In this document: positions 3,032 through 45,084 of the stretch, one piece after another | Layout: each line of letters opens with the position of its first letter | Numbering within the stretch: position 1 is the stretch's first letter | Origin: Planotetraspora kaengkrachanensis | GTDB lineage: Bacteria; Actinomycetota; Actinomycetes; Streptosporangiales; Streptosporangiaceae | Direction: 5' to 3' | DNA length: 64,000 bases | Assembly (NCBI RefSeq): GCF_016862895.1 | Contig: NZ_BONV01000009.1 | Coordinates: 62,001 to 126,000 of the forward strand | Program-made: the position numbers and the translations under genes | The notes under the pieces: generated by a model | The model's input: only the letters and a program-made list of their open reading frames with translations | The model's database searches: none | What the model was told of the DNA's origin: nothing

Positions 3032-3841
3032 ATGACGTCGCCCCCGGCTCCCGTCGAATACGCGGTGGCGGTCGAGCACTACCTCGCCGCGCTGCGCCTG
3101 AGTGCGGCGTCCCGCCGCGTCTATCGGATCGCCCTGGCCACGTGGGCGTGGGCGCTCGTCGCGCGGACGCCGCCGGACGGGAGGGCACGCCGGGGCGCCG
3201 CCGCGCCGATCGTGCCGATGGCCCTGCTCGACGCCTCCGGCGCCGCGGGGCGGCTGGAAGACGCCCTCGCACGGCGGGCCGCCACGGCCGACCCGCGCAC
3301 CGTCAGCAGGGAGTTGTCCATCCTGCGCGGGGCGATCTCCTGGTGGCGGATGCGGGGCTGGATCGACGCGGATCCACTGGACGGGCTGCGCCCGCCCGCA
3401 ACGCCGTCGTCCGCGCCCTCCACGCTGACGCCGGCGCAGGTGACGGAGATCTTCGCCCTCCCGGCCCCGCTCCGCGAGCAGACCTGCTGGCGCCTGCTGT
3501 ACGAGACGACGGCCCCCATCGAGCGCGTGCTCGCGCTGAACGCCGACGACCTCGACCTGATCAGACGACGGGTGCGCGGAGAGCCGGGCATCCGCTGGCG
3601 AGCCGGTTCGAGCCGCCTGCTCCCCCTGCTGCTGGCCGGCCGTACGGCGGGGCCGGTGTTCCTGACGAGCAGGCAGGCGGCGGCGGGCACGGCGGCCCGC
3701 GACCGCTGCCCGGTCACCGGGCGGGGGCGGCTGTCCTACCGCCAGGCGGCCGAGCTCTTCGCCGCGGCCACCAGGCATCTCGACCCGGCGGGACGTGGCT
3801 GGACCCTTCGGCGGCTCAGGGCCGCCGGCGCGTCGGCGTAG
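3032..3841 (+). CDS. Tyrosine-recombinase-like protein lacking catalytic residues
   Basis: 269 residues that follow the layout of a phage-integrase family protein. There is an N-terminal SAM-like core-binding region (VEHYLAALRLSAASRRVYR, and TVSRELSILRGAISWWRMRG near residue 95). A catalytic-domain-like half follows, with WRLLYETTAPIERVLALNADDLDL. In true recombinases this stretch reads TGLRxSE; here the first catalytic Arg is Pro. Near the C-terminus WTLRRLRAAG resembles the HxLRH box but has Trp for His, and the chain ends before the nucleophilic Tyr. It therefore cannot do strand exchange and may be a DNA-binding relic or a regulator. AAGGGG lies seven bases before the ATG, so translation looks intact. 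Confidence 0.65.
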   Translation: MTSPPAPVEYAVAVEHYLAALRLSAASRRVYRIALATWAWALVARTPPDGRARRGAAAPIVPMALLDASGAAGRLEDALARRAATADPRTVSRELSILRGAISWWRMRGWIDADPLDGLRPPATPSSAPSTLTPAQVTEIFALPAPLREQTCWRLLYETTAPIERVLALNADDLDLIRRRVRGEPGIRWRAGSSRLLPLLLAGRTAGPVFLTSRQAAAGTAARDRCPVTGRGRLSYRQAAELFAAATRHLDPAGRGWTLRRLRAAGASA

Positions 3842-3849
3842 CCGGACGT

Positions 3850-5028
3850 TCAGGTCCGCCCGGGAGCGGCCCGCCGCCGCGGCCCGGGAAGCTCGAACAA
3901 CCACCTCGCGCGTGCCGCCAGGAGGCCGCGGTGGATCGCCAGGCTCAGGCCGATCACCACGGTGGTCAGCAGGATCGGGTATCCCGCGACCGCGAGCGCC
4001 TGGCCGTCCCCGCCCAGCCCGGACATCGGGCCGACGAGGAACCGGTGCAGCAGGGCGAGCAGCGGCATGTGGATGACGTAGATCGGCAGCGTCCGGCGGC
4101 CGAGGGCGGCGAGCGCGTCGCCCACGGCACGCCACCGGCTCACCCGGGCGGCGGCGGTGACGCCGAAGGCCACCGCCGCGACGGACACCGCCGGCCACAC
4201 CCCCACCCAGCGCTGGGCGCCGGCCACGGCCATGGCCGTCAGCGCCGCGGCGTACACGACGAAGGTCAGGGCGAGACGGCGGTTCGTCGCCGTCGCCGCC
4301 CACCGCTCGACGTGGGGCTTGAGGTACAGGCCACCGAGGAAGAACACCAGGTTCTGGTAGAAGCCGCCGCGGTCGCCCGGGGTGGCGAGCACGCCGGCGG
4401 CGGTGATGACGGACAGGGCCGCGGCGGCGGCGAGGACCACGGGCCGCGGCACCCGTCGCACGGCCTTGGCGAACGCGAAATAGAGCGCGAGGGCGTACAG
4501 GTACCAGAGGTTGGACGGGGTGATGGTGAGCTGCTCCACCAGTTCGGAAACGGAACCGGCGCGGGCGGTGAGGAAGTCCGGGACCGCCGCCAAGATCGCG
4601 GTATGGATGAGCAGCCAGACGGCGTACAGGTAGAGGAACTTCGCGATCCTGGACCTGCCCAGCACCCGCCACGGGCGGTTCACCGCGTTCGCGGCGAACA
4701 CCCCGGAGATCGTGAAGAACAGCGGCATCCGCAGCGGCAGGAGCTGCTCGCCCAGCGTTCCCCACGCACTGGGGACGGGCAGGCCGACATGCCAGCGGAT
4801 CTGCAGGTAGTCCTTGACGATGACGTGCCACAACACCACGAGGATGATGCACGCGCCCTTGGCGGCGTCCGCCCACTGCGCCCGCTGCCGGGGCGCGGCG
4901 GCGCCGGGCGAGGTCCGGGCGTTCCCTGCCTCCTCCACGCCGGGCGACCGGTCCCCGCCGGTCGGTGACCCCGCGAGGGCCGGCGGGCCGCCGGCGTTCC
5001 GGGCGGCGGTGCTGCCCTGCGTTCCCAT
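3850..5028 (-). CDS. Membrane acyltransferase, family 3
   Basis: 392-residue integral membrane O-acyltransferase. After a hydrophilic N-terminal region of about 50 residues, the family-3 opening motif appears: WADAAKGACIILVVLWHVI, with the His implicated in transfer, then the RMPLFFTISGVFA segment. About ten hydrophobic helices follow, with YVIHMPLLALLHRF near the end. Relatives acetylate sugars, peptidoglycan or secondary metabolites using cytosolic acyl-CoA. GGAGGAT lies directly upstream of the ATG at 5028. It is tail-to-tail with the integrase-like gene, eight bases apart, and divergent from the two-component genes. The acceptor is unknown. Confidence 0.85.
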   Translation of the reverse strand: MGTQGSTAARNAGGPPALAGSPTGGDRSPGVEEAGNARTSPGAAAPRQRAQWADAAKGACIILVVLWHVIVKDYLQIRWHVGLPVPSAWGTLGEQLLPLRMPLFFTISGVFAANAVNRPWRVLGRSRIAKFLYLYAVWLLIHTAILAAVPDFLTARAGSVSELVEQLTITPSNLWYLYALALYFAFAKAVRRVPRPVVLAAAAALSVITAAGVLATPGDRGGFYQNLVFFLGGLYLKPHVERWAATATNRRLALTFVVYAAALTAMAVAGAQRWVGVWPAVSVAAVAFGVTAAARVSRWRAVGDALAALGRRTLPIYVIHMPLLALLHRFLVGPMSGLGGDGQALAVAGYPILLTTVVIGLSLAIHRGLLAARARWLFELPGPRRRAAPGRT

Positions 5029-5175: not shown

Positions 5176-6369
5176 GTGATGACTCCGCAGGTCCGGCACG
5201 GCTGGCGGCGCCTGGGCCAGGTGACCGGGCTCATGGTGATGGCGGTGCTCGGGATCATCGACCTCCGCTTCGGCATGCTCCAGCTGTATGACGACGCCGG
5301 CCGTCTGCTGTCCCTGATACGGGTGGGGCTGGCGGTCGTCACCGTGCTGGTCTGGCTGCCCGCGCACCCGCAGGGGTCCCGGCGCCTGCCGACGCTGGCT
5401 CTGCTGGTCGCCGCGGCGTCGATCGTCGTCACCGGAGCCACGATGGCCGTCGGGTTCGGCGCGACGGGGGTCTGGGGCTTCGCCGAGACCTGCGGCCTGT
5501 TCGCGAGCCTCTACGTGGTGGCACGCCGGGCGGCCCCCAGGCCGGCTGTGGGCGCGGTTCTGGCCCTGGGGCTCGCCCTCATAGTGCTGCCGTCGCGCGG
5601 TGTCACCGACGACTCGTACCTCATAGCCGCGCTCCTCCTCTCGCTCGGCGCGGCCGGCGCGACCGCCGGCGGGGCCTACATGCGGTACCTGGACCACGGG
5701 CGGGAGCGGGCTCTCGCCGCGGTCCGGGCCGAGCAGCGCGCCGAGTTCGCCAGGGAACTGCACGACTTCATCGCCCACCACGTCACCGGGATCGTGGTCC
5801 AGGCGCAGGGCGCGCGGTTCATCGCCGAGCAGGACCCGCGGCGGGTGATCCTCGCCCTGGAGCAGATCGAGCAGGCGGGCGCGGAGACGATGAACTCGAT
5901 GCGGCGGATGGTGGGCGTGCTCCGCGACCCGGACGCCGCGCCGGACGCGCCGTTGGCGCCGCTGGCCGGACTGGCGGATCTCGACTCGCTGCTGGCGGGC
6001 TTCAACGGTTCCGGCGCGCCGGCGGCCCGGCTGCACGTCGACGGAGACCTCAACGTGGTCCCCGTCGAGGTCTCCACCACGGCCTATCGGGTGGTGATGG
6101 AGGCGTTGACGAACACCCGCAGGCACGCGGACGGCGCCCGGTCGGTGGACGTGCAGGTCTTCCGCGGCCCGGAGTGGCTCTTCGTCCGGGTGACCGACGA
6201 CGGCGCCGCCCCGCGCGCGGCCGCGCCTCGTGGGCAACAGCGGTACGGTCTCATCGGCCTGACCGAACGGGTCCGGACGCTCGGCGGCCGGATCTCCGCC
6301 GGGCCCGGCGCCGCCGGCGGCTGGGTGGTCGACGCGGCGCTGCCGCTCAATCAGGGGGTGGCGCGGTGA
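5176..6369 (+). CDS. Sensor histidine kinase, NarL/DesK type
   Basis: About 397 residues. The N-terminal 165 residues hold about six hydrophobic helices with little extracytoplasmic sequence, which suggests sensing within the membrane. A HisKA_3 dimerisation domain follows, with phospho-acceptor His196 in FARELHDFIAHH. A HATPase domain ends the protein (N-box EALTNTRRHADG, G1 VTDDGAA, G2 YGLIGLTERV). The start is GTG at 5176 or the in-frame ATG three bases later. Its stop overlaps the response-regulator start (GTGA), so the two are translationally coupled. The signal is unknown; related pairs often control cell-envelope stress or an adjacent transporter, but none is adjacent here. Confidence 0.92.
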   Translation: MMTPQVRHGWRRLGQVTGLMVMAVLGIIDLRFGMLQLYDDAGRLLSLIRVGLAVVTVLVWLPAHPQGSRRLPTLALLVAAASIVVTGATMAVGFGATGVWGFAETCGLFASLYVVARRAAPRPAVGAVLALGLALIVLPSRGVTDDSYLIAALLLSLGAAGATAGGAYMRYLDHGRERALAAVRAEQRAEFARELHDFIAHHVTGIVVQAQGARFIAEQDPRRVILALEQIEQAGAETMNSMRRMVGVLRDPDAAPDAPLAPLAGLADLDSLLAGFNGSGAPAARLHVDGDLNVVPVEVSTTAYRVVMEALTNTRRHADGARSVDVQVFRGPEWLFVRVTDDGAAPRAAAPRGQQRYGLIGLTERVRTLGGRISAGPGAAGGWVVDAALPLNQGVAR

Positions 6370-7021: not shown

Positions 7022-8494
7022 CTAGCGCCGACGGTCCTTCAGGGACTTCGGCGGGGTGGTCGGCGAGTCCAGCCAGGCGTCGATGAACGCGGTGAAGTCC
7101 TGGCCGGTCTGCTCGTTGACGAAGGCGGTGAAGGAGGCCCGGGTCTGCTGGGTGTTCCTGTGGTCCTGCGCCCAGTCGCGGGCGAGCGCGAAGAACTTCT
7201 TGTCGCCGATCACGCTCTGCAACTGACGGAGCATCGCCGCCCCGCAGATGTACACGTTGCTCATGGCGAACTCCGACGGCCTGGGGTGACCGGGCGGGCC
7301 GAACTCCTTGCGCAGGGCCGAGTCGGACTGCCGCAACCAGGCGTCCAGGGCGGCGTCCGTCGCGTGAGCCGTCTCCTTCTGATAGACCAGCTGGGCGTAC
7401 TGCGCCCAGGCCTCGTTGAGCCACAGATCCCGCCAGTCGGCCGGGGTGACGGCGTCGCCGAACCACTGGTGGGCGTACTCGTGCACGACGTCCAGCTCGA
7501 ACTGGTCCGCACCGTATGAGAACACGGCGGACCCCAGGGTGATCATCTGCTGGGTCTCCATCCCCGATTCGGAGTCCACCATGACGACGCCGCCGCTGGG
7601 GAAAGGATAGGGGCCGAACTTCTTCTCCAGCCAGGCCAGGTACTTCGGGGACTGCTTCAGGACGGGGAGGGCGCCCTTGTCGCCCGGCCGGTACCAGTAG
7701 GTCAGCGGCAGCCCGTGCGGGCCTTTCCCGGCGGCCTTCTTGTACTTCCCTACGGCGAGCGTCGTCAGGTAGGAGGCCACGGGATCGGTGCTCTGGTAGC
7801 GGAAGGTGTCGCCGTCCTGCCCCATGGGGGTGCCGCTCGCGATGCCGGACCAGCCCTTCGGCACCGTCACGGCGATGTCGTAGAGCGCCTCGTCGGACGG
7901 CTGGTCGTTCGCCGGATACCAGGTGAAGGCGCCGTACGGCTCCTGCATCGTCCACAGGCCGCCGTCCTTGCCGACGGTGAGCCCGAGCGGCGCGGAGTCG
8001 CTGCGCTTGGACGGCATCGGGGTGGTCGTGGGCCTGCCGTGATAGGCCACGACGAGGGTGAACGGACTGTCCGCGGTGACGGGGGTGGCGACGGTGAGCT
8101 TCTCCTTGGCCACCTTGCCGGTCGCGGGGGCGCCGTCGACCGTCAGCGAGTCGATGTCGTAGGGCTTGAAGTCGAGGCTGAAGGACGCCGCGTCCTTCGT
8201 CGGCCGGACCTGGAGGGTCGCCGTGCCGGTCAGCACACGCGTGGACGGCGACCAGTCGAGCGCCAGGTCGTAGTGGAGCACGTCAAGGGCGTCGGTGCCC
8301 CGCTCCGGGTAGATCGGGTCGGCGACGGGCGTCGAGCGTCCGGCCTGCCAGGCCGCGTACGCGTCCCCGGTCGGCGTCGGCGTCGCTGACGCGCTGACAG
8401 GTGAGGCGGGTGAGGTGGGGGTAAAAGGTTCGGCCGTGCAGCCGGTCATGAGCAATGCCGGCACGAGAACGGCGTAAAGGAGAGGGCGATTCAC
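7022..8494 (-). CDS. M1-family zinc metallopeptidase, lipoprotein
   Basis: 490-residue aminopeptidase-like enzyme tethered outside the membrane. The GTG start at 8494 gives a compact lipoprotein signal (MNRPLLYAVLVPALLMTGC, lipid-acceptor Cys19). An ATG 42 bases upstream is possible but makes an untypical signal. A beta-sandwich domain (about 60-250) precedes the thermolysin-like domain. That domain has the zinc motif HEYAH (338-342), the third ligand Glu361 in LNEAWAQY, and the substrate motif GMETQQ, where M1 enzymes usually have GxMEN. It lacks the long C-terminal domain of PepN-type enzymes. It is divergent from the Arg/Trp peptide gene, so a role in trimming an exported peptide is possible but only by position. 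Confidence 0.9.
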   Translation of the reverse strand: MNRPLLYAVLVPALLMTGCTAEPFTPTSPASPVSASATPTPTGDAYAAWQAGRSTPVADPIYPERGTDALDVLHYDLALDWSPSTRVLTGTATLQVRPTKDAASFSLDFKPYDIDSLTVDGAPATGKVAKEKLTVATPVTADSPFTLVVAYHGRPTTTPMPSKRSDSAPLGLTVGKDGGLWTMQEPYGAFTWYPANDQPSDEALYDIAVTVPKGWSGIASGTPMGQDGDTFRYQSTDPVASYLTTLAVGKYKKAAGKGPHGLPLTYWYRPGDKGALPVLKQSPKYLAWLEKKFGPYPFPSGGVVMVDSESGMETQQMITLGSAVFSYGADQFELDVVHEYAHQWFGDAVTPADWRDLWLNEAWAQYAQLVYQKETAHATDAALDAWLRQSDSALRKEFGPPGHPRPSEFAMSNVYICGAAMLRQLQSVIGDKKFFALARDWAQDHRNTQQTRASFTAFVNEQTGQDFTAFIDAWLDSPTTPPKSLKDRRR

Positions 8495-8824
8495 GGACGA
8501 AACCGTATAGGCCACGGCAAAAAGTCCGATACGCATTAAATACCCAGGCCGGAATGCGGCGGAAAAAGGGCCGCGCCGACGATCACCGCCCGGGGACCTC
8601 GAGACGTCCGTCCCGTGGGGCGAATCCTCGCCAGGCGCGGGCGACCGGCGCACCGCCGCGGGAAATGGCCTCTATGCGTTCGCCGCACGCGAGGTGTTTC
8701 CATCGTTCAGACCCATCGGTGGAAGTGAGCCTCCTCACGCACTCCCCGCATGGCTATTTATCCCTTTCTGGGGTTAATGTCGGAATTGGACCTACTCGGG
8801 GGAACCAACCAAAGGGAGGGATCG
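8495..8824. other. Divergent intergenic region upstream of peptide gene
   Basis: 330 bases between the M1 peptidase and the small peptide gene contain no supported gene. The part nearest the peptide gene is markedly AT-richer than its surroundings (around 8748-8800, with CTATTTATCC and GGGGTTAATG). This is a plausible promoter region for the peptide. AAAGGGAGGG ends four bases before the peptide ATG and is a strong ribosome-binding site. Confidence 0.4.
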
Positions 8825-8944
8825 ATGAGCCTAAACAAGATCTTCCCGACGAACCTCAGCATGTCCGAGGACAGCTGGGGCTGTTGCAGGAGACGTCGGC
8901 GCAGGCGCTGGCGTCGCTGGCGTCGTAGGCGCTGGTGGTGGTGA
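8825..8944 (+). CDS. Cys-Cys/Arg/Trp-rich 39-aa peptide, candidate RiPP precursor
   Basis: The strong AAAGGGAGGG site sets the ATG at 8825. The first 19 residues form a leader-like segment (MSLNKIFPTNLSMSEDSWG). The remaining 20 are CC followed by Arg blocks broken by single Trp residues, ending in WWW: seven Arg, Trp, two Arg, Trp, four Arg, three Trp. The net charge of that half is about +13. No homologous family is known to me. The ABC exporter starting 56 bases downstream makes an exported, possibly modified peptide the best reading (bacteriocin, signal or membrane-active peptide). No lanthipeptide, radical-SAM, YcaO or P450 gene lies next to it, so a disulfide or thioether involving the Cys pair is speculative. 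The Arg codons are mixed (AGG, AGA, CGT, CGG, CGC), which argues for selection on the protein. Confidence 0.72.
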   Translation: MSLNKIFPTNLSMSEDSWGCCRRRRRRRWRRWRRRRWWW

Positions 8945-8965
8945 CAACATCTGGAGGACCAGAAA

Positions 8966-8992
8966 GGAGCCGGCGGGTCACCCGTCGGCTCC
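8966..8992 (+). promoter_or_regulatory. Hairpin between peptide and exporter genes
   Basis: GGAGCCGGCGGG (8966-8977), loop TCA, CCCGTCGGCTCC (8981-8992): a twelve-bp stem with one G-U pair. GGAGG at 8953-8957 could also pair with CCTCC at 8993-8997, lengthening the structure. It lies eight bases before the exporter ATG and includes most of an AAAGGAG sequence. It may act as a partial terminator giving more peptide than exporter mRNA, or may limit exporter translation. Confidence 0.6.
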
Positions 8993-9000
8993 CCTCCTTC

Positions 9001-10767
9001 ATGGGCTTCTCGGCGGGTGCGGGGACGGACGCCCCCACGGTGGCGCCCATCGTCTCCATCCGGAAGACCTTCCGGCGGTTCTGGCCCTACACCCGGGGCC
9101 TGCGCCGGCTGCTCGTCCTCGGCGTCGCCGCCGCGATCCTGGCCACCGCCTGCGAGATCGCGGCGATCCGGCTCTTCGGGCTCATCACGGACGAGGTCCT
9201 CAGCACCCACGACCTCACCGCCTTCTGGGCGCCCGCGCTCGCCTGGCTCGGCCTGGCCCTGGTCGCGGCCGTGGCGTCCTTCGTCAGCGCGTACGGCGCG
9301 GCCGTGGGCGGGGAGCGCTTCCTGCTGCGCCTGCGCGACAGCGTGTTCGACCATCTCCAGACGCTGACCCCTGACTTCTTCGAAAACCGCCGGCTGGGCG
9401 ACCTGATGGCCCGGCTGACCGACGACATCGAGGCCATCGAGGAACTCGTGGCCTCCGGCCTGATCCGGCTGATCACCGCGGTGATCAGCGCGGTCCTGTT
9501 CTCCGCGGCCGCCTTCTGGATCAGGTGGGACCTCGCCCTGGTGACCTTCGCGATGATCCCGGCCTTCCTCCTGGTGTCCAAGGCCTTCGCCTCGCGGTTC
9601 AGGCGGGCGGCGGCGCGTGAGCGCTTCAGCAACGGCGTCATGAACAGCACCGTCGAGGAGGCCCTGTCGAACCAGTCGGTCGTCCAGGCCTACAACCGCC
9701 AGGCGGCCGAGGCGGGGCGTCTGCACGAGGCAGGCCGTGGCTGGCTGACCGCCAACCTCTGGCAGGCCAGGCTCTCCGCTCTGTACGGCCCCGCCGTACA
9801 GGTCATCGAGACCGTCTGCATGCTCGTGATCATCGGGTTCGGCGCGTGGGAGATCGCGGCGGGCCGGCTCACCCTCGGCGGACTGCTGGCCTTCGCCGCC
9901 TATCTGGCCTACCTGTATCCGGCGGTCCAGGGGCTCGGGGAGATCGCGCTCACCGTCTCCGAGGCGGGCGCGGGATCCGACCGCATCATGGAGGTGCTCC
10001 GCGCCCGTCCCGCCGTCACCGACCGGCCCGGCGCCCGCACCCCGAGCGCTCCGGTCCGCGGGCACATCGAGTTCCTCGACGTCGGCTTCACCTATCCCCG
10101 CCGGTCCCGGCCGACGCTGAGCGGCCTGTCGTTCAGCGCGCTGCCCGGCGAGCTCATCGTGTGCACGGGGCCGAGCGGCGCAGGCAAGTCGACCGTGGCC
10201 AAGCTGCTCCTGCGGTTCTACGACCCCACCGAGGGGCGGATCCTGCTCGACGGCACAGACCTGCGCGACCTGCCGAGCGACGTCCTGCGCAACCGCGTCA
10301 CCCTGCTCCAGCAGGAGAATCTCGTCTTCTCCGGGACGGTGCGCGACAACATCGCCTACGGCCGCCCGGAATCGAGCCAGGCCGAGATCGTGGAGGCCGC
10401 GGTCACGGCCGGCGCCCACGACTTCATCCGCGGGCTCCCCCAGGGCTACAACACGCCCATCGGCCAGCGGGGGCGCCTGCTGTCCGGGGGCCAGCGGCAG
10501 CGGATCGCGATCGCCCGGGCGATCCTGCGTGACACCCCGGTGCTGGTCCTGGACGAGCCGATGACCGGACTCGACGAGCCGACGGCGGCGCGGATCATGG
10601 AACCGCTCCGCAGGCTGATGTCCGGGCGCACCACCATCCTCATCACCCACGACCTCCGCCTCGTGCCTGACGCCGCTGAGAAGGTGGTGCTCGAGGCCGC
10701 CAGGGACTCCGGGCGGATCCGGCTCCGGCTGTCCCGGCAACACGGAACATCCGTCCCCAGCCCCTGA
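9001..10767 (+). CDS. ABC exporter, fused permease-ATPase
   Basis: 588-residue half-transporter expected to work as a homodimer in the membrane. Six hydrophobic helices occupy about residues 25-310. The nucleotide-binding domain has Walker A GPSGAGKST, Q-loop LLQQEN, signature LLSGGQRQR and Walker B VLVLDEP, all intact. No C39 peptidase domain is present, so leader removal, if any, needs another protease. The start is uncertain: ATG 9001 is the first ATG, but no good ribosome site precedes it except those buried in the hairpin; a GTG at 8935 would overlap the peptide gene. Position directly after the Arg/Trp peptide gene suggests that the peptide is its cargo. Confidence 0.88.
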   Translation: MGFSAGAGTDAPTVAPIVSIRKTFRRFWPYTRGLRRLLVLGVAAAILATACEIAAIRLFGLITDEVLSTHDLTAFWAPALAWLGLALVAAVASFVSAYGAAVGGERFLLRLRDSVFDHLQTLTPDFFENRRLGDLMARLTDDIEAIEELVASGLIRLITAVISAVLFSAAAFWIRWDLALVTFAMIPAFLLVSKAFASRFRRAAARERFSNGVMNSTVEEALSNQSVVQAYNRQAAEAGRLHEAGRGWLTANLWQARLSALYGPAVQVIETVCMLVIIGFGAWEIAAGRLTLGGLLAFAAYLAYLYPAVQGLGEIALTVSEAGAGSDRIMEVLRARPAVTDRPGARTPSAPVRGHIEFLDVGFTYPRRSRPTLSGLSFSALPGELIVCTGPSGAGKSTVAKLLLRFYDPTEGRILLDGTDLRDLPSDVLRNRVTLLQQENLVFSGTVRDNIAYGRPESSQAEIVEAAVTAGAHDFIRGLPQGYNTPIGQRGRLLSGGQRQRIAIARAILRDTPVLVLDEPMTGLDEPTAARIMEPLRRLMSGRTTILITHDLRLVPDAAEKVVLEAARDSGRIRLRLSRQHGTSVPSP

Positions 10768-10803: not shown

Positions 10804-11250
10804 GTGATCATGCACAGGCTCGCGCAAACGGCCTCCCACCTGCCCGCCCCCAAGCCGTGATCATGCACGAATTCGGCGGCATGCCGTTCGACCTGCGCGA
10901 ACGAATTTCGTGATCATGCAGAGAAGGCGGCACCCGTTGATAGAGGAGTGCCACCTTCTACGTTTGGACCGCCACGCATCGCCCGCCGGCCGTACATCCG
11001 CAGGACGGCTCGGCTGCTCACCGCCAGTGCATGATCACAGAGGCCGTCGATGCAGCTCTGCGCACGTCTTCCCGAACACGCGCATGATCACGAACAGCAT
11101 CGGCGCCGGTCAGCGCCCATGTCCGCGAACCCGCGCATGATCACCCACACCGTAAGCGCCGGTCAGCGCCCATGTCCACGAACCCGTGCATGATCACCCA
11201 CACTGTCGGCGCCGGTCAGCATGCACATCCACGAACCTGTGCATGATCAC
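10804..11250. repeat. Phased inverted arrays of a 12-bp motif, 53-bp period
   Basis: GTGATCATGCAC or close variants begin at 10804, 10857 and 10910. The reverse complement GTGCATGATCAC (or GCGCATGATCAC) begins at 11027, 11080, 11133, 11186 and 11239. Every step within each array is exactly 53 bp, about five helical turns, so the motifs lie on one DNA face. The two arrays point towards each other around a hairpin at 10922-10959. The last three 53-bp units of the second array are also similar outside the motif, which shows tandem duplication; the first array shares only the motif. Possible roles are an iteron-like protein-binding array, a regulatory or nucleoid site, or a non-autonomous element. 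The remaining bases of the 596-base gap (10768-11363) hold no supported gene. Confidence 0.85.
10922..10959. other. Central hairpin between the two 53-bp arrays
   Basis: AGAAGGCGGCAC (10922-10933) pairs with GTGCCACCTTCT (10948-10959), with one mismatch and a 14-base loop. It begins two bases after the last motif of the first array and separates the two oppositely oriented arrays. It may be a terminator for the exporter transcript or the symmetry centre of the array. Confidence 0.6.
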
Positions 11251-12447: not shown

Positions 12448-13614
12448 ATGGCCGGGCTCACCGACTTCCACGGCTACCAGGACAGCGTCACCTGGCGTCT
12501 GGTCTCCTCCGGCGTGGAGATCAGCGGCACCGGCGTCGAGCGGACGCAGGGCAGCCCGCGCACCGTCACCCGGGTCTGGGACGCCTACTCCCGGCAGATC
12601 AACGTCTCGGCCAGGGCGTACCGGGTCCCCGCCGAACTGATCATCGCGACCATCTGCACGGAGTCCGGCGGCAACGCCGACGCGGTCAGGGAGGAGCCCG
12701 GCTACACCTCGGACGAGGCCACTCCGCACCGGGTGAGCGCCGGGCTCACGCAGACGCTCATCTCCACCGCCAGCGAGACGCTCCAGCTCAGCCTGGATCG
12801 CGCGTGGCTGCTCGTGCCGGGCAACTCGATCACGGCGGGAACGGCCTACATCGCGAAACAGGCCCGCGAGACCTCGCTCGACCCGCCGCTGGTGGCTGCC
12901 GCGTACAACGCGGGGCGGCTGCACTACCAGGGGGGCATGGGCAACCGCTGGAAGCTGCGGCAGTACCCGATCGGCACGGGAGCGCACGTCGACCGTTTCG
13001 TCCGTTTCCTCAACGACGCGGTCGCCGTGCTCCGCGAGCATCCCACCAGGCCGGCCGTCGGCCTGGACGTCCTGCTCGGCGGCTCGTCCCCGTCCCCGCC
13101 ACCGAGATCGGTCGCCGCCCCGCAGCCGACCGTCCGATGGGCGGAGCGGGCCGACCGCGCGGCGGTGCCCGCCTACGCGCTCGGCGTCCTGACCGACGTG
13201 CTGCGCGCGGCCGGGCTGTCCGACGCGCTGATCACCAGCACCCAGCGCTCACCGAGGGACCAGGCGCGGGTGATGTACGACAACTGCGAGCGGTACGGCC
13301 CCGCGGCGCAGAAGAAGCTCTACGGCTCGTACGGCGACCAGGTCGTCGACGTGTACGTCGCGTCGAAGGCCGCAGGCCGGGATCCCGCCACGATCAGGGC
13401 CGATATGGAGGGCAAGATCGTCGCTGTCGGGGCACAGAACGTGTCCAGGCACACGGCGGACCCGCGGGTGCTCACGGTCATCGACGTCGCCCCCAGCTCG
13501 GTGCGCGACCAGGCCGCCTTCGAGCGCGCGGTCAAGGCCGAGGGCCGGGTCGGGCGGTTCCTGCAACCTCCGACCGACCCCGCGTACCACCTCGAGATCC
13601 CGAGCCCGAGGTGA
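12448..13614 (+). CDS. Lytic transglycosylase (SLT) with M15-like C-terminal domain
   Basis: 388 residues with two apparent peptidoglycan-acting domains. Residues about 45-185 carry an SLT lysozyme-like fold with catalytic Glu in ICTESGGN, GLTQTLIST, and the YNAGRL motif. The C-terminal part (about 225-385) has the spaced motifs of M15 D,D-peptidases: STQRSPRDQARVMY, then SRHTADPRVLTVIDV, and the final YHLEIPSP, in which the His and Asp residues could bind zinc. Together they could cut glycan strands and peptide stems. There is no signal peptide, which is unusual for a wall hydrolase; delivery by another system, release on lysis or intracellular action are options. Its place inside an operon ending in a protease supports an effector or assembly role. 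Confidence 0.8.
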   Translation: MAGLTDFHGYQDSVTWRLVSSGVEISGTGVERTQGSPRTVTRVWDAYSRQINVSARAYRVPAELIIATICTESGGNADAVREEPGYTSDEATPHRVSAGLTQTLISTASETLQLSLDRAWLLVPGNSITAGTAYIAKQARETSLDPPLVAAAYNAGRLHYQGGMGNRWKLRQYPIGTGAHVDRFVRFLNDAVAVLREHPTRPAVGLDVLLGGSSPSPPPRSVAAPQPTVRWAERADRAAVPAYALGVLTDVLRAAGLSDALITSTQRSPRDQARVMYDNCERYGPAAQKKLYGSYGDQVVDVYVASKAAGRDPATIRADMEGKIVAVGAQNVSRHTADPRVLTVIDVAPSSVRDQAAFERAVKAEGRVGRFLQPPTDPAYHLEIPSPR

Positions 13615-23543: not shown

Positions 23544-25294
23544 ACCGCGACCTGCCCATCGCCGACCGCCGGCAGGTGCGGCGGGCCGCTCTGCGCCTGG
23601 TCAGGCGCGACGTGCCGGGCTTCACCGCGACGCTGCTGCTCAACAGCCTGGCGGCCGCGGCCGCGCTGGTCAGCCCGTGGTTGCTGGGCCGCATCGTCGA
23701 CTCCATCAGCGCCGGAGGCGCGGTCGACCTGCTCGCCGCGATCGCCGTGGGCGCGGCGCTGGCCCAGCTGGTCCTGTCCAGGTACGCCGAGAAGATCGGC
23801 ACCCGCTTCAGCGAGCGTGTCCAGGAACGCATCCGCGCGGAACTCCTCGACCGCGTGCTGGCCCTGCCCGCCGCCACGGTCGAGCACATCCGCACCGGCG
23901 ACCTGACCGCCCGCGGAACCACCGACGTGGCCGTCGTCGGCCGCACCCTGCGCGACGCCGCCCCCGCGATCCTCGTCTCGAGCCTGCAGGCGCTCTTCCT
24001 GATCGTCGCCGTCTTCCTGGTCGACCCGGTCCTGGGCGCCTGCGGCCTGCTCGCGCCGGCCGGGATCGTGGCCGCCTCCCGCTGGTACCTTCGCCGCGCC
24101 CGCCCCGCCTACCTGGAGGAAGGCGCCGCCCGCTCGGAGCTGGCCGAGCACCTGGCCGCCAACGCCGCGGGCGCCCGCACCATCGAGGTCCTGGGCCTGC
24201 AGGCCAAGCGAACGCGGGCGGCGGAACGGGTGATCGAGCGCAGCCGGGCCGCCCAGTTGCGGACCCTCTTCCTGCGCAGCGTGCTCTGGCCCTCGGTGGA
24301 GGTCTCCTCGCTGCTGCCGCCCGTGCTGGTGCTGCTGCTCGGCGGGGTGCTCCTGGACCGCGGCCAGGTCACGCTGGGCGCGGTCGTCACCTGTGTGCTC
24401 TACCTGCGCCGGCTCGGCCAGCCGATCGAGACGATCCTGGTCTGGCTGGAGCAGCTGCAGAGCAGCGGCGCCTCCTTCGCCAGGATCGAGGGCCTCGCGA
24501 CACCGGCGCGGGAGGAGGTCGCCGCCGCGGCTCCGCAGGGCGACCGCATCGAGGCGTGCGGCGTGCACTTCGCCTACGAAGGCGGCGACGACGTGGTGAC
24601 CGGCGTCGATCTGACCGTGCGGCCCGGCGAGCGCCTGGCCGTCGTCGGCCCCTCGGGAGCCGGCAAGTCCACCCTGGGCAAGCTGCTGGCCGGCATCGAC
24701 CGGCCCCGTCTGGGCACGGTCACCGTCGGCTCGGTGCCCGTCGCCGACCTCTCCCCCGCCCGGCTCCGCGAGCACGTCGTCCTGGTCACCCAGGAACAGC
24801 ACCTGTTCCTCGGCACCGTCCGCGACAACCTCCTGCTGGCAGATCCGACGGCCGGCGACGACCGCCTGGGCAAGGCGCTGGCGGCGGTCGGCGCCGACTG
24901 GGTCGCCTCGCTCGACGACGAGCTGGGGTCCCAGTCGTCCGGCACCACTCTCGGCCCGGACCGGGTCCAGCAGCTCGCCCTGGCCAGGGTCATCCTGGCC
25001 GACCCGCACACCGTCATCCTCGACGAGGCCACCGCCATGCTCGACCCCCGTACGGCCAGGCGCGCCGAACGCTCGCTCGCCGCCGTCCTGGAGGGGCGGA
25101 CCGTCATCGCGATCGCCCACCGCCTGCACACGGCCGGCGACGCCGACCGGGTGGTGGTCATGGACGACGGCCGGGTGGTGGAGGTCGGAGCCCACGACGA
25201 ACTGGTCGCGGCGGGCGGGGTGTACGAGGCGCTGTGGAGGTCGTGGCACGGCTCGCGGAGTGTCGGCGCCGAACACGATTGTCCGCCGCGCTGA
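23540..25294 (+). CDS. ABC exporter subunit with non-canonical signature
   Basis: 584-residue partner of the preceding subunit. Six helices are followed by an ATPase domain with intact Walker A (GPSGAGKST), Q-loop (VTQEQH) and Walker B (VILDEA). The signature LSGGQ is replaced by TTLGPDRVQQLALAR. In a heterodimer, its Walker motifs and the partner's LSGGQ build one good ATP site, and the second site lacks every key element. Asymmetric exporters such as TAP or TM287/288 follow this plan, though usually less extremely. It starts by a four-base overlap and ends just before a perfect 14-bp terminator. It may export a peptide product of the protease island, inferred from position only. Confidence 0.88.
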   Translation: MNRDLPIADRRQVRRAALRLVRRDVPGFTATLLLNSLAAAAALVSPWLLGRIVDSISAGGAVDLLAAIAVGAALAQLVLSRYAEKIGTRFSERVQERIRAELLDRVLALPAATVEHIRTGDLTARGTTDVAVVGRTLRDAAPAILVSSLQALFLIVAVFLVDPVLGACGLLAPAGIVAASRWYLRRARPAYLEEGAARSELAEHLAANAAGARTIEVLGLQAKRTRAAERVIERSRAAQLRTLFLRSVLWPSVEVSSLLPPVLVLLLGGVLLDRGQVTLGAVVTCVLYLRRLGQPIETILVWLEQLQSSGASFARIEGLATPAREEVAAAAPQGDRIEACGVHFAYEGGDDVVTGVDLTVRPGERLAVVGPSGAGKSTLGKLLAGIDRPRLGTVTVGSVPVADLSPARLREHVVLVTQEQHLFLGTVRDNLLLADPTAGDDRLGKALAAVGADWVASLDDELGSQSSGTTLGPDRVQQLALARVILADPHTVILDEATAMLDPRTARRAERSLAAVLEGRTVIAIAHRLHTAGDADRVVVMDDGRVVEVGAHDELVAAGGVYEALWRSWHGSRSVGAEHDCPPR

Positions 25295-42897: not shown

Positions 42898-45084
42898 TCA
42901 GCCGGTGATGCTGGGCTCACCGGTCTCGAGGTGGCCGACGAACCGCTGCGACCAGGACGGGTCGGAGCTGACCGTGACGGTCACGTCGTACCAGCCGTCG
43001 CTGTCCTTCAGCGGGTTCAGCGACCACTCGTGGCTGTCGTGCCCGCCGACCTTCACGGTGTGCGGCCTGCCCGACATGTAGTTGTTGTACGTGATCGTGA
43101 ACGTCACGGACGTCTTGCCGTGGTTGTGCAGCTCCAGCGTCAGCTTCGGCTTCTTGTCCGACCTGCCGTCGTAGTAGGACGCCTCCACCTCGAGGTCCTT
43201 GCCCGCGGCCGCGACGTCACCGGTGAACCGGCGCAGGAAGCGGTTCGGCCCGGTGACGGTGAGGTCGTACTTCGTGTCACCGGCGGAGGCGCCCACGGCG
43301 CCGGTGCCCGACGCCGTCGCGTGGGCCCCGACGGTGTACTGGCCGGGGAACGCGGCCGGGTACTGCGCGAGCGTCGGGACTCCGGCCCGGTTGTTGTACA
43401 CGGCGAAGTGGCTCGCCTTGGCCGCGAACGGGGCCACGTTGCTGAACTTCAGGTTCGCCACGACGCCGGACGGCCCGCTGGTGAACCCGGCCAGGTTGGC
43501 GTTCGGCTGGTACGGCAGCGGGCGGGCCGGCTTGGTCCCCTTCTCCTGAGTCGGCATCGTGTTGTCGCCCGGCAGCGGGGTGTACCGGGTCTCCGGGACG
43601 AGCGCCCCGGTCTGCGGGAGAAGCGGCATGCCGTAGACCGGCTTGTCGAAGTCGAAGGCGCCCGTCAGGTCGCCGCAGACCTTGCGCCGCCAGTCGCTGA
43701 TGTTGGGCGAGATGGCGGGCTTGCCGAGCGCGGTGGTCCACTTCTCCATGAACTGGATGACCGAGGTGTGGTCGGAGACCTCCGAGGTCACCCAGCCGCC
43801 GCGGGTCCAGGGCGAGATGAGGATGAGCGGCACGCGGAACCCGAGCCCGACCGGGAGCGGAGCGGTGACGCCGTAGGCGCCCATGGTGCCGGAGACGAAC
43901 TCGTCCGCCTCGCCCGGCGCCGGCATGGGCGGCGGGACGTGGTCGAACTGGCCGTCGTTCTCGTCGTAGTTGATGATCACCAGGGTCGAGTTGAACACGT
44001 CCGGGTCGGCGTTCAGGGCCTCCATGACGCCGCGCAGGAAGTACGCGCCGTTGCTCGGCGCCGTGACCGGGTGCTCGGAGAAGAACTGGTTGTTCACGAC
44101 CCAGTTCACCTGCGGCAGCGTGCCGTTGACGACGTCGGCGCGGATCGCGGCGATGAGGTTGTCGGCGTTGCCCGACAGGCCGGTGATCGGCTCGGGGACG
44201 TTCTTCACGCCGTTGTCGTAGTAGACATTGCCCGGAGCGGCGGTCCCGCCCTGGGTGGGGTCGAGCTTGGCGAAGGTGTCGAAGTACTCCAGGCCGTTGT
44301 CGCCGTAGTCGTCGGCGCACTGGTAGACCCGCCAGCTGACGCCCGCCCCCTGGAGCGTCTCCGCGTAGGACTTCCACGGCAGGAACTTGCCGCGCTCGTC
44401 GCCGCCGTCGTAGGCGGTGAAGGCGCCGTGCTTGTGGTCGGCGTTGATCGTGCCGCTCCACAGGTAGGTGCGGTTGGGCCCGGTCGCGCTGAGCACGGAG
44501 CAGTGGTAGGCGTCGCCGACCGTGTAGGCGTCCGCGAGGGCGTAGTGGAACGGCAGGTCGTGGCGGTCCATGTAGCCCAGCGTGGTCGGGCCGCCCTTGG
44601 CGTAGTACCAGCCGTTCATCAGCCCGCCGTACCAGGCGCCGTGCTGGTCGGTCCAGCCGTGGCTGGTGCCGCCGTAGTTGGCCGCGCCGAGCTCGGCGCT
44701 CGGCGGCGTCGCCCCGCTCCAGGTCTTCGCCCCGCTCAGCCGCCACGGGTACTGCGTGTCAGCCCCGACCGTGATCGTTTTCGGCTGTTCCCACACGGTC
44801 TTGCCACCGGGGAGCATGATGGTCGAGCGGTCACCGAAACCGCGCACTCCCTTCATGGCGCCGAAGTAGTGGTCGAAGCTGCGGTTCTCCTGCATGATCA
44901 CAACGACATGCTTGATGTCACGGATGTCGCCGTACGGCTTGTGATGGTGGCCAGGCTTGTGTTGGTCGGGCTCGTGCTGCGTGGAGGCTTCGGCGGCGCC
45001 CGCGGGCAACGCGGCGCCGACGGCGGCGGCTCCGGTCACGGCGGCGGCGGTGCCGAGGAAGTTTCTCCGGGACAAGTTGGACAT
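42898..45084 (-). CDS. Phosphocholine-specific phospholipase C, Tat-exported
   Basis: 728 residues. Twin-arginine signal in MSNLSRRNFLGTAAAVTGAA, so it is exported folded. The catalytic phosphoesterase domain (about 50-480) has HVVVIMQENRSFDHYFGAMK with metal-binding Glu and Asn, and later IINYDENDGQFDHVPPP. Two C-terminal DUF756-type beta-domains follow (about 500-720). It hydrolyses phosphatidylcholine or sphingomyelin outside the cell, often for phosphate supply. ATG 45084 has GGAGG ten bases upstream. It stands alone; no Pho-type site was identified in the 186 bases upstream. Confidence 0.93.
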   Translation of the reverse strand: MSNLSRRNFLGTAAAVTGAAAVGAALPAGAAEASTQHEPDQHKPGHHHKPYGDIRDIKHVVVIMQENRSFDHYFGAMKGVRGFGDRSTIMLPGGKTVWEQPKTITVGADTQYPWRLSGAKTWSGATPPSAELGAANYGGTSHGWTDQHGAWYGGLMNGWYYAKGGPTTLGYMDRHDLPFHYALADAYTVGDAYHCSVLSATGPNRTYLWSGTINADHKHGAFTAYDGGDERGKFLPWKSYAETLQGAGVSWRVYQCADDYGDNGLEYFDTFAKLDPTQGGTAAPGNVYYDNGVKNVPEPITGLSGNADNLIAAIRADVVNGTLPQVNWVVNNQFFSEHPVTAPSNGAYFLRGVMEALNADPDVFNSTLVIINYDENDGQFDHVPPPMPAPGEADEFVSGTMGAYGVTAPLPVGLGFRVPLILISPWTRGGWVTSEVSDHTSVIQFMEKWTTALGKPAISPNISDWRRKVCGDLTGAFDFDKPVYGMPLLPQTGALVPETRYTPLPGDNTMPTQEKGTKPARPLPYQPNANLAGFTSGPSGVVANLKFSNVAPFAAKASHFAVYNNRAGVPTLAQYPAAFPGQYTVGAHATASGTGAVGASAGDTKYDLTVTGPNRFLRRFTGDVAAAGKDLEVEASYYDGRSDKKPKLTLELHNHGKTSVTFTITYNNYMSGRPHTVKVGGHDSHEWSLNPLKDSDGWYDVTVTVSSDPSWSQRFVGHLETGEPSITG

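Follow-up and report, generated by a model that had tools for sequence, protein, structure and literature searches.

In a 64,000-nucleotide stretch of Planotetraspora DNA (the window), a 39-codon gene for a peptide with a tail of cysteine, arginine and tryptophan was found directly upstream of an ABC exporter, and pairs of a strongly basic small peptide with this type of exporter recurred in many actinobacteria, in part with tails of other compositions. The peptide is probably the cargo of this exporter, that is, a ribosomally made, apparently unmodified and strongly basic secreted polycation. This reading of the sequences was preferred because it explains together the pairing, the tandem copies of the peptide gene, the constraint on its amino acids and the acidic residues of the exporter.

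The peptide gene and its surroundings in the window

Features of the locus are listed in Table 1. Direct translation of the peptide gene gave MSLNKIFPTNLSMSEDSWGCCRRRRRRRWRRWRRRRWWW followed by a stop, with residues 20–39 consisting exclusively of Cys, Arg and Trp. The exporter frame is open throughout and matched the Pfam families ABC_membrane (PF00664) and ABC_tran (PF00005). Judging from the codons available, exporter translation probably starts at GTG 8941 (which overlaps the peptide stop), ATG 9001 or GTG 9040; measured from the peptide stop, the frame keeps one register in 71/91 loci, which is compatible with a start at GTG 8941 or further 3'. An earlier note on this DNA had described a good ribosome site, a product divided into a leader-like and a compositionally biased half, and a complete ABC exporter directly after it, all of which agreed with the present annotation.

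Table 1. Coordinates of features at the peptide-exporter locus (positions in the window)
Feature	Position	Strand	Basis
Promoter-like element ATTTAT-N8-GGGGTTAATGTC, preceding the peptide gene	8756-8781	+	pattern from two paralogous loci
Shine-Dalgarno sequence GGGAGGG, ending 4 nt before the ATG	8814-8820	+	read directly
Peptide gene, 39 codons, proposed exporter cargo	8825-8944	+	conservation, pN/pS, controls
Leader-like head MSLNKIFPTNLSMSEDSWG, M-S/T-x-x-K-hydrophobic-x-P motif	8825-8881	+	motif present in some family members
Cys/Arg/Trp-only tail CCRRRRRRRWRRWRRRRWWW	8882-8941	+	translation; family tail pN/pS 0.13
ABC exporter, membrane and ATPase domains, without a peptidase domain	8935-10767	+	open frame, Pfam
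Terminator-like hairpin GGAGCCGGCGGG-TCA-CCCGTCGGCTCC	8966-8992	+	inverted-repeat test against shuffles

Contig C1 of this genome has a second peptide-hairpin-exporter locus, with the peptide MSISNVFPTGARTPSSWGSWGGGWRRCGCRRRWRCRRRRCWW and an exporter in two pieces that is 75–79% identical to the exporter of the window. The pattern ATTTRY-N8-10-GGGKKNANTGTC, written from both paralogous loci, occurred at only those two places in the genome (the second copy at G000:C1:446359-446385), and the reversed control pattern gave 0 matches there. From its sequence, the element in the window is probably a promoter, and its restriction to both paralogous loci suggests a dedicated regulator or sigma factor. 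By visual inspection, further peptide genes of the family are preceded by similar elements. Neither the promoter-like element, nor the hairpin, nor the paralogous locus was part of the earlier note.

When ORFs of at least 90 codons within ~5 kb were compared, the exporter alone was common to all 60 long loci, the next commonest neighbour being present in 21 of 60, and neither a constant modifying enzyme nor a constant peptidase was found near the pair in this set. The earlier statement that no modifying enzyme is adjacent was thereby extended from one locus to 60. An M1 peptidase is encoded divergently from the peptide gene (7022-8653, minus strand), as previously described, but the trimming role proposed for it was not supported: with tblastn, M1 was detected at 4/111 loci (30 of the 111 having only ~1.5 kb of flank), all of them in Planotetraspora, two upstream and two downstream of the exporter. 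At the latter two (L105, L106) it is downstream and convergent, at ~3359-4825 in exporter orientation. With the gene divergent and upstream in one pair of Planotetraspora genomes and convergent and downstream in the other, the neighbourhood has been rearranged, and M1 was ruled out as a constant component of the system by its presence at 4/111 loci.

Further features of the window were recorded separately. The repeat GTGATCATGCA occurs three times after the exporter at 10804, 10857 and 10910 (+), with an exact spacing of 53 bases, and three times inverted at 11028, 11187 and 11240 (-), two of these 53 apart; one more inverted copy lies at 44891. A HisKA_3 histidine kinase (5176-6369, plus) and an SLT transglycosylase (12448-13614, plus) are encoded nearby. 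Another ABC exporter-like frame at 23648-25174 (G000:C9:85648-87174) is ~30% identical to the exporter studied here, with no strongly basic small ORF upstream.

NCBIfam gave 0 matches for two and then six peptides and Pfam 0 matches for four family peptides, in agreement with the earlier note, in which no named RiPP or antimicrobial family was known for the pattern; since the tested peptides have no curated family match, automatic annotation may overlook the system. An Rfam element at the locus was ruled out by 0 matches in 8400-9200.

Distribution, composition and constraint of the peptides

The peptide ORF is present in 5/5 Planotetraspora genomes. Used as a query, the 39-residue peptide matched 11/297 genomes of the host's taxonomic family at E≤0.01, five being Planotetraspora itself; three of the six other matches (L018, L019, L021) do not resemble a family peptide, and G141, one of those six genomes, has a family peptide elsewhere (L160). 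The exporter search of the same 297 genomes yielded 85 places in 80 genomes and 17/68 genera at E≤1e-120. The close-locus set comprised 91 loci, namely 84 of these places (G091:C271, at a contig edge, was left out) and seven loci from named genomes, five of which duplicate a peptide among the 84, giving 81 distinct peptides. A small ORF is located upstream of the exporter in 91/91 close loci, where, as throughout, loci, exporter groups and pN/pS pairs are related sequences and counts are not independent events. Among Nonomuraea genomes, 53/54 contain the exporter, each with a single match at E≤1e-150, the sole exception at this threshold being G575. Named records carrying the pair include Nonomuraea gerenzanensis and a Streptomyces nigrescens plasmid; the plasmid-collection records of both have no features annotated at the locus.

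A class-level search of 296 genomes found an exporter match at E≤1e-110 in 20, of which 18 lie outside the host's family; one place (G377:C18) was left out. Twenty further, distant loci were taken from other families, and 17/20 have a basic small ORF upstream, e.g. MSFHKIAPVKKAAKPVPAPKKKTPKKHAPKRRPIAHKG, MPLKKILPPPPKPKKHKKPLPPPLPKKPFHG and MRHHFPVRSHGRRRHRNDWDDDNNRSWWWRRRHHHHRHHHHDN; at loci with several basic ORFs under the filter, the pick was made by resemblance. At the three other distant loci, candidates came from a broader post hoc search run without a matched control: divergent from the exporter in L212, downstream on the same strand in L223 (MARNYFTPREAGGDWWWHRRRRWHRWHRHHWWRHRRWDDGSGGGW) and downstream on the other strand in L222.

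Tails of the Cys/Arg/Trp/Gly type were assigned to 83/91 close loci and other, mostly basic tails to 8/91. Under the tail filter (at least 70% Arg/Trp/Cys/Gly over the last 20 residues) 82 loci pass; the peptide of L182 is also of this type but lies further upstream of the exporter. The last 25 residues of the 73 distinct Cys/Arg/Trp/Gly peptides contain 33% Arg, 24% Gly, 20% Trp and 15% Cys, with at least one Cys in 73/73. The divergent tails (L169-L176) are composed of Arg/Tyr/Phe, Lys/Pro/His or Gly/Phe/His/Arg, and seven of these eight peptides are without Cys and five without Trp. In the head, Pro at position 8 was observed in 34/73 and Lys at position 5 in 22/73 distinct Cys/Arg/Trp/Gly peptides, and heads such as MSFHKIAP and MPLKKILP occur in peptides from other families; the motif is faint or missing in many Nonomuraea peptides. 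Some members are barely charged, the lowest net charge being -1.

Control ORFs were required to have an ATG, a purine-rich site and 25–65 codons within 500 bases upstream of a gene. By this filter, ORFs of the Cys/Arg/Trp/Gly type were found in 0/431 control gene-upstream regions vs 81/91 exporter loci, and ORFs with a net charge of at least 8 in 7/431 controls, 73/91 close loci and 16/20 distant loci. Other ABC exporters of the same genome had an upstream ORF of charge 8 in 1/15 cases, and among 25 distant ABC exporters (25–51% identity, mostly other phyla; L053 and L060 without upstream sequence) no upstream ORF exceeded a charge of 6, which one reached.

A cause at the DNA level needed testing because codons for Cys, Arg, Trp and Gly can share a G at the second position. 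Across 11 close pairs of equal length, which overlap and are hence not independent, the tails showed 53.5 synonymous differences per 193 sites and 24.5 non-synonymous differences per 674 sites (pN/pS 0.13), compared with a pN/pS of 0.39 in the heads. A purely nucleotide-level constraint was ruled out by the tail values themselves (pS 0.28 vs pN 0.036), and some tails contain Phe, Tyr, His or Lys, the codons of which have no middle G. As read from these substitutions, the tail constraint is on amino acids. The earlier note had called the 39-codon ORF a real gene and its repeat non-random; both claims stand through the Planotetraspora orthologues, the 0/431 controls and the tail pN/pS, which replace its argument from mixed Arg codons. 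Its proposed check of frame conservation in relatives that keep the exporter has now been run and found the frame conserved.

Hairpins, tandem genes and the exporter clade

In 78/81 distinct loci, an inverted repeat that outscored dinucleotide shuffles (p≤0.05) lies within 70 nt of the peptide stop, at a median distance of 11 nt; in L161, L163 and L171 no inverted repeat after the stop beat the shuffles. Pairing of the peptide ORF with the 5' arm gave a mean z of -0.57 (10% of loci below -1.65) and with the 3' arm a z of +0.08. Mean pairing energies were -18.4 and -19.0 kcal/mol for ORF and arm vs -29.8 kcal/mol between the arms.

One peptide query matched 12/147 genomes of the Streptomyces-like order. 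Tandem peptide genes are present in 5/12 Streptomyces-like (genus g85) loci, with five genes in L226, three in L227 and two each in L232, L233 and L234; a second gene seen at first in L229 was dropped under a stricter filter. These peptides are rich in Lys, Pro and Ala, are alike within each array and precede one exporter, with a purine-rich site before each gene. Two peptide genes were also found in L224 and near L173. The strongest hairpin follows the last gene in 5/5 arrays (score at least 38 with p 0.00 in four, 22 with p 0.20 in L232), and the inner, second gene of L226 has a hairpin with score 21 and p 0.02. Such arrays with the strongest hairpin last resemble a cargo operon and are unexpected for an attenuator leader. 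An exporter with the expected geometry lies downstream in 9/12 Streptomyces-like loci; in L229, L235 and L236 an intact-looking peptide ORF is followed by exporter remnants only, with parts missing or broken, and the peptide can therefore outlast the pump.

The 106 distinct exporters formed one clade (support 0.999), apart from paralogues in the genome of the window and exporters from other phyla, and those partnering Cys/Arg/Trp/Gly peptides formed one subclade (support 0.98). In the membrane half, acidic residues specific to the clade stand at positions 166, 169, 199, 241, 292 and 306 (P0002 numbering). Basic residues were gained in the clade at 216 and 311, and an acidic residue at 256 and a basic one at 276 were lost. 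Position 169 is acidic in 90/91 close and 20/20 distant loci vs 1/39 other ABC exporters, and position 292, which falls inside a hydrophobic peak, in 83/91 and 19/20 vs 1/39. The other ABC exporters are basic at 169 in 16/39 and at 199 in 20/39 cases. Membrane halves carry a mean net charge of -0.5 for the 83 partners of Cys/Arg/Trp/Gly peptides, -0.9 for the eight of divergent peptides, +2.7 for 17 distant exporters, +5.7 for the three without an upstream peptide, +5.3 for 15 own paralogues and +10.6 for 24 exporters of other phyla, with ranges overlapping those of own-genome paralogues (-7 to 12). On this alignment evidence the acidic positions fit a polycation path. They may instead stem from one ancestral event, and the three exporters without an upstream peptide carry identical acidic positions.

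Interpretation and comparison with known systems

According to the cargo reading, the low-complexity peptide would be exported by its own ABCB/MsbA-type half-transporter, probably through recognition of the short head, in which many members have the motif M-S/T-x-x-K-hydrophobic-x-P. The tail would supply mainly positive charge and aromatic or cysteine side chains, so that turnover among Cys/Arg/Trp/Gly, Arg/Tyr/Phe, Lys/Pro/His and Lys/Pro/Ala would be possible while the acidic residues of the membrane half are kept. The peptide gene would probably be driven by one promoter, and the hairpin would probably let only a share of the transcripts extend into the exporter, so that much more peptide than pump would be made. 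The secreted polycation would attach to anionic wall polymers, membranes or DNA and could act as an antimicrobial or an envelope component. An exporter present in almost all Nonomuraea genomes agrees poorly with a weapon and points to an envelope or developmental function, whereas the scattered tandem arrays of the Streptomyces-like order (12/147 genomes by one peptide query) favour a weapon.

Several observations weigh against the cargo reading: the exporter remnants in 3/12 Streptomyces-like loci, the weak or absent head motif in many Nonomuraea, the little-charged members, the gain of two basic positions (216, 311) with loss of the acidic 256, and the same acids in three peptide-less exporters. 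Moreover, a hairpin placed after the small ORF and ahead of the exporter is also compatible with attenuation, where the small ORF would be a regulatory leader on which slowed ribosomes, especially under ribosome-targeting antibiotics, control read-through into a drug exporter. Ribosomes move slowly through stretches of R, P, K or W. Pairing of the ORF with the 5' arm is slightly above shuffles, and the order of small ORF, hairpin and ABC exporter has a precedent in bmrB (PMC4191407). This alternative was nevertheless considered unlikely, as the amino-acid-level constraint spans the tail, arrays reach five peptide genes with the strongest hairpin at the last, candidates are divergent or downstream in 3/20 distant loci (post hoc), pairing between ORF and arms is weaker than between the arms, and the hairpin is placed differently from that of bmrB (see below).

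Two further proposals concern the product. An intracellular peptide that binds nucleic acid, the ribosome or the exporter itself, with something else as exporter substrate, would agree with the three intact peptide ORFs beside decayed exporters and with an Arg/Lys-rich composition, which is typical for nucleic-acid binding; the pairing with one exporter clade across many contexts and the clade-specific acidic residues make it decidedly improbable. A cargo that is a RiPP, its Cys, Trp or Arg side chains altered by an enzyme encoded elsewhere, has in its favour the leader-like head with a distinct tail and the Cys in all 73 distinct Cys/Arg/Trp/Gly peptides, and was judged quite remote given the lack of an enzyme common to the 60 long loci and of a universal modifiable residue, as 7/8 divergent peptides are without Cys and 5/8 without Trp. 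One DNA bias towards a middle G could give all four tail residues in a chance open frame of GC-rich DNA, an explanation of almost negligible probability that conservation (5/5 Planotetraspora orthologues), the 0/431 controls, the tail pN/pS and the tail residues whose codons have no middle G already refute.

Beyond the exporter-cargo pair itself, it is conceivable, and put forward tentatively, that these loci constitute an actinobacterial polycation secretion system with an exporter clade whose membrane path is adapted to positive charge and short low-complexity peptides selected for bulk charge and aromatic or cysteine content. With equal reserve, selection for bulk charge and not for a fixed sequence would let the alphabets CRWG, RYF, KPH, KPA and WRH be exchanged between lineages. 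If the cargo reading is true, an undescribed secreted-peptide system exists in actinobacteria, a main source of antibiotics, and its exporter is found in nearly every Nonomuraea genome searched; natural Arg/Trp/Cys peptides would resemble chemists' designs, and the exporter could show how highly charged chains pass through an ABC pump.

Class II bacteriocins are unmodified and have a dedicated ABC exporter, and the pair in the window likewise places a small cationic product beside its own ABC exporter without a modifying enzyme. It differs in that the exporter has no C39 peptidase (ABC_membrane and ABC_tran span the protein), the window peptide has no Gly-Gly and the family, by eye, no common Gly-Gly head end, the low-complexity tail changes in composition and the exporter occurs in 53/54 Nonomuraea genomes. 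A co-encoded modifying enzyme, as in RiPP loci, was not found as a shared ORF of at least 90 codons within ~5 kb of the 60 long loci. Arg/Trp-rich antimicrobial peptides include indolicidin, tritrpticin and synthetic RW peptides; the likeness to them is in Arg and Trp composition, whereas the present peptides are bacterial, have their own exporter and have relatives without Trp.

With one transmembrane and one ATPase domain per chain (Pfam; PDB relatives), the exporter is of the ABCB/MsbA type and shares domain order and sequence family with these pumps, including the yeast a-factor exporter (PDB 7qkr), known as Ste6. Since a-factor is exported by such a pump, pumps of this type are able to carry peptides; unlike the yeast protein, the present exporter is a half-transporter with clade-specific acids in its membrane half and a strongly basic proposed cargo.

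In Bacillus subtilis, the small ORF bmrB controls the ABC exporter bmrCD and contains a terminator (PMC4191407). A small ORF and a terminator-like hairpin precede an ABC exporter here too, but compared with that description the hairpin lies after the stop and not within the ORF, some ORFs are in tandem, the constraint is at the amino-acid level, and three loci have a candidate peptide downstream or divergent. The single upstream leader ORF of an attenuator is seen in most single-peptide loci, but not with tandem genes (5/12) or with the candidate elsewhere (3/20, post hoc). Pairing of a small peptide with a dedicated ABC exporter is a known kind of arrangement in general; of this peptide family and the turnover of its composition, titles and abstract openings of open-licence literature contained no description.
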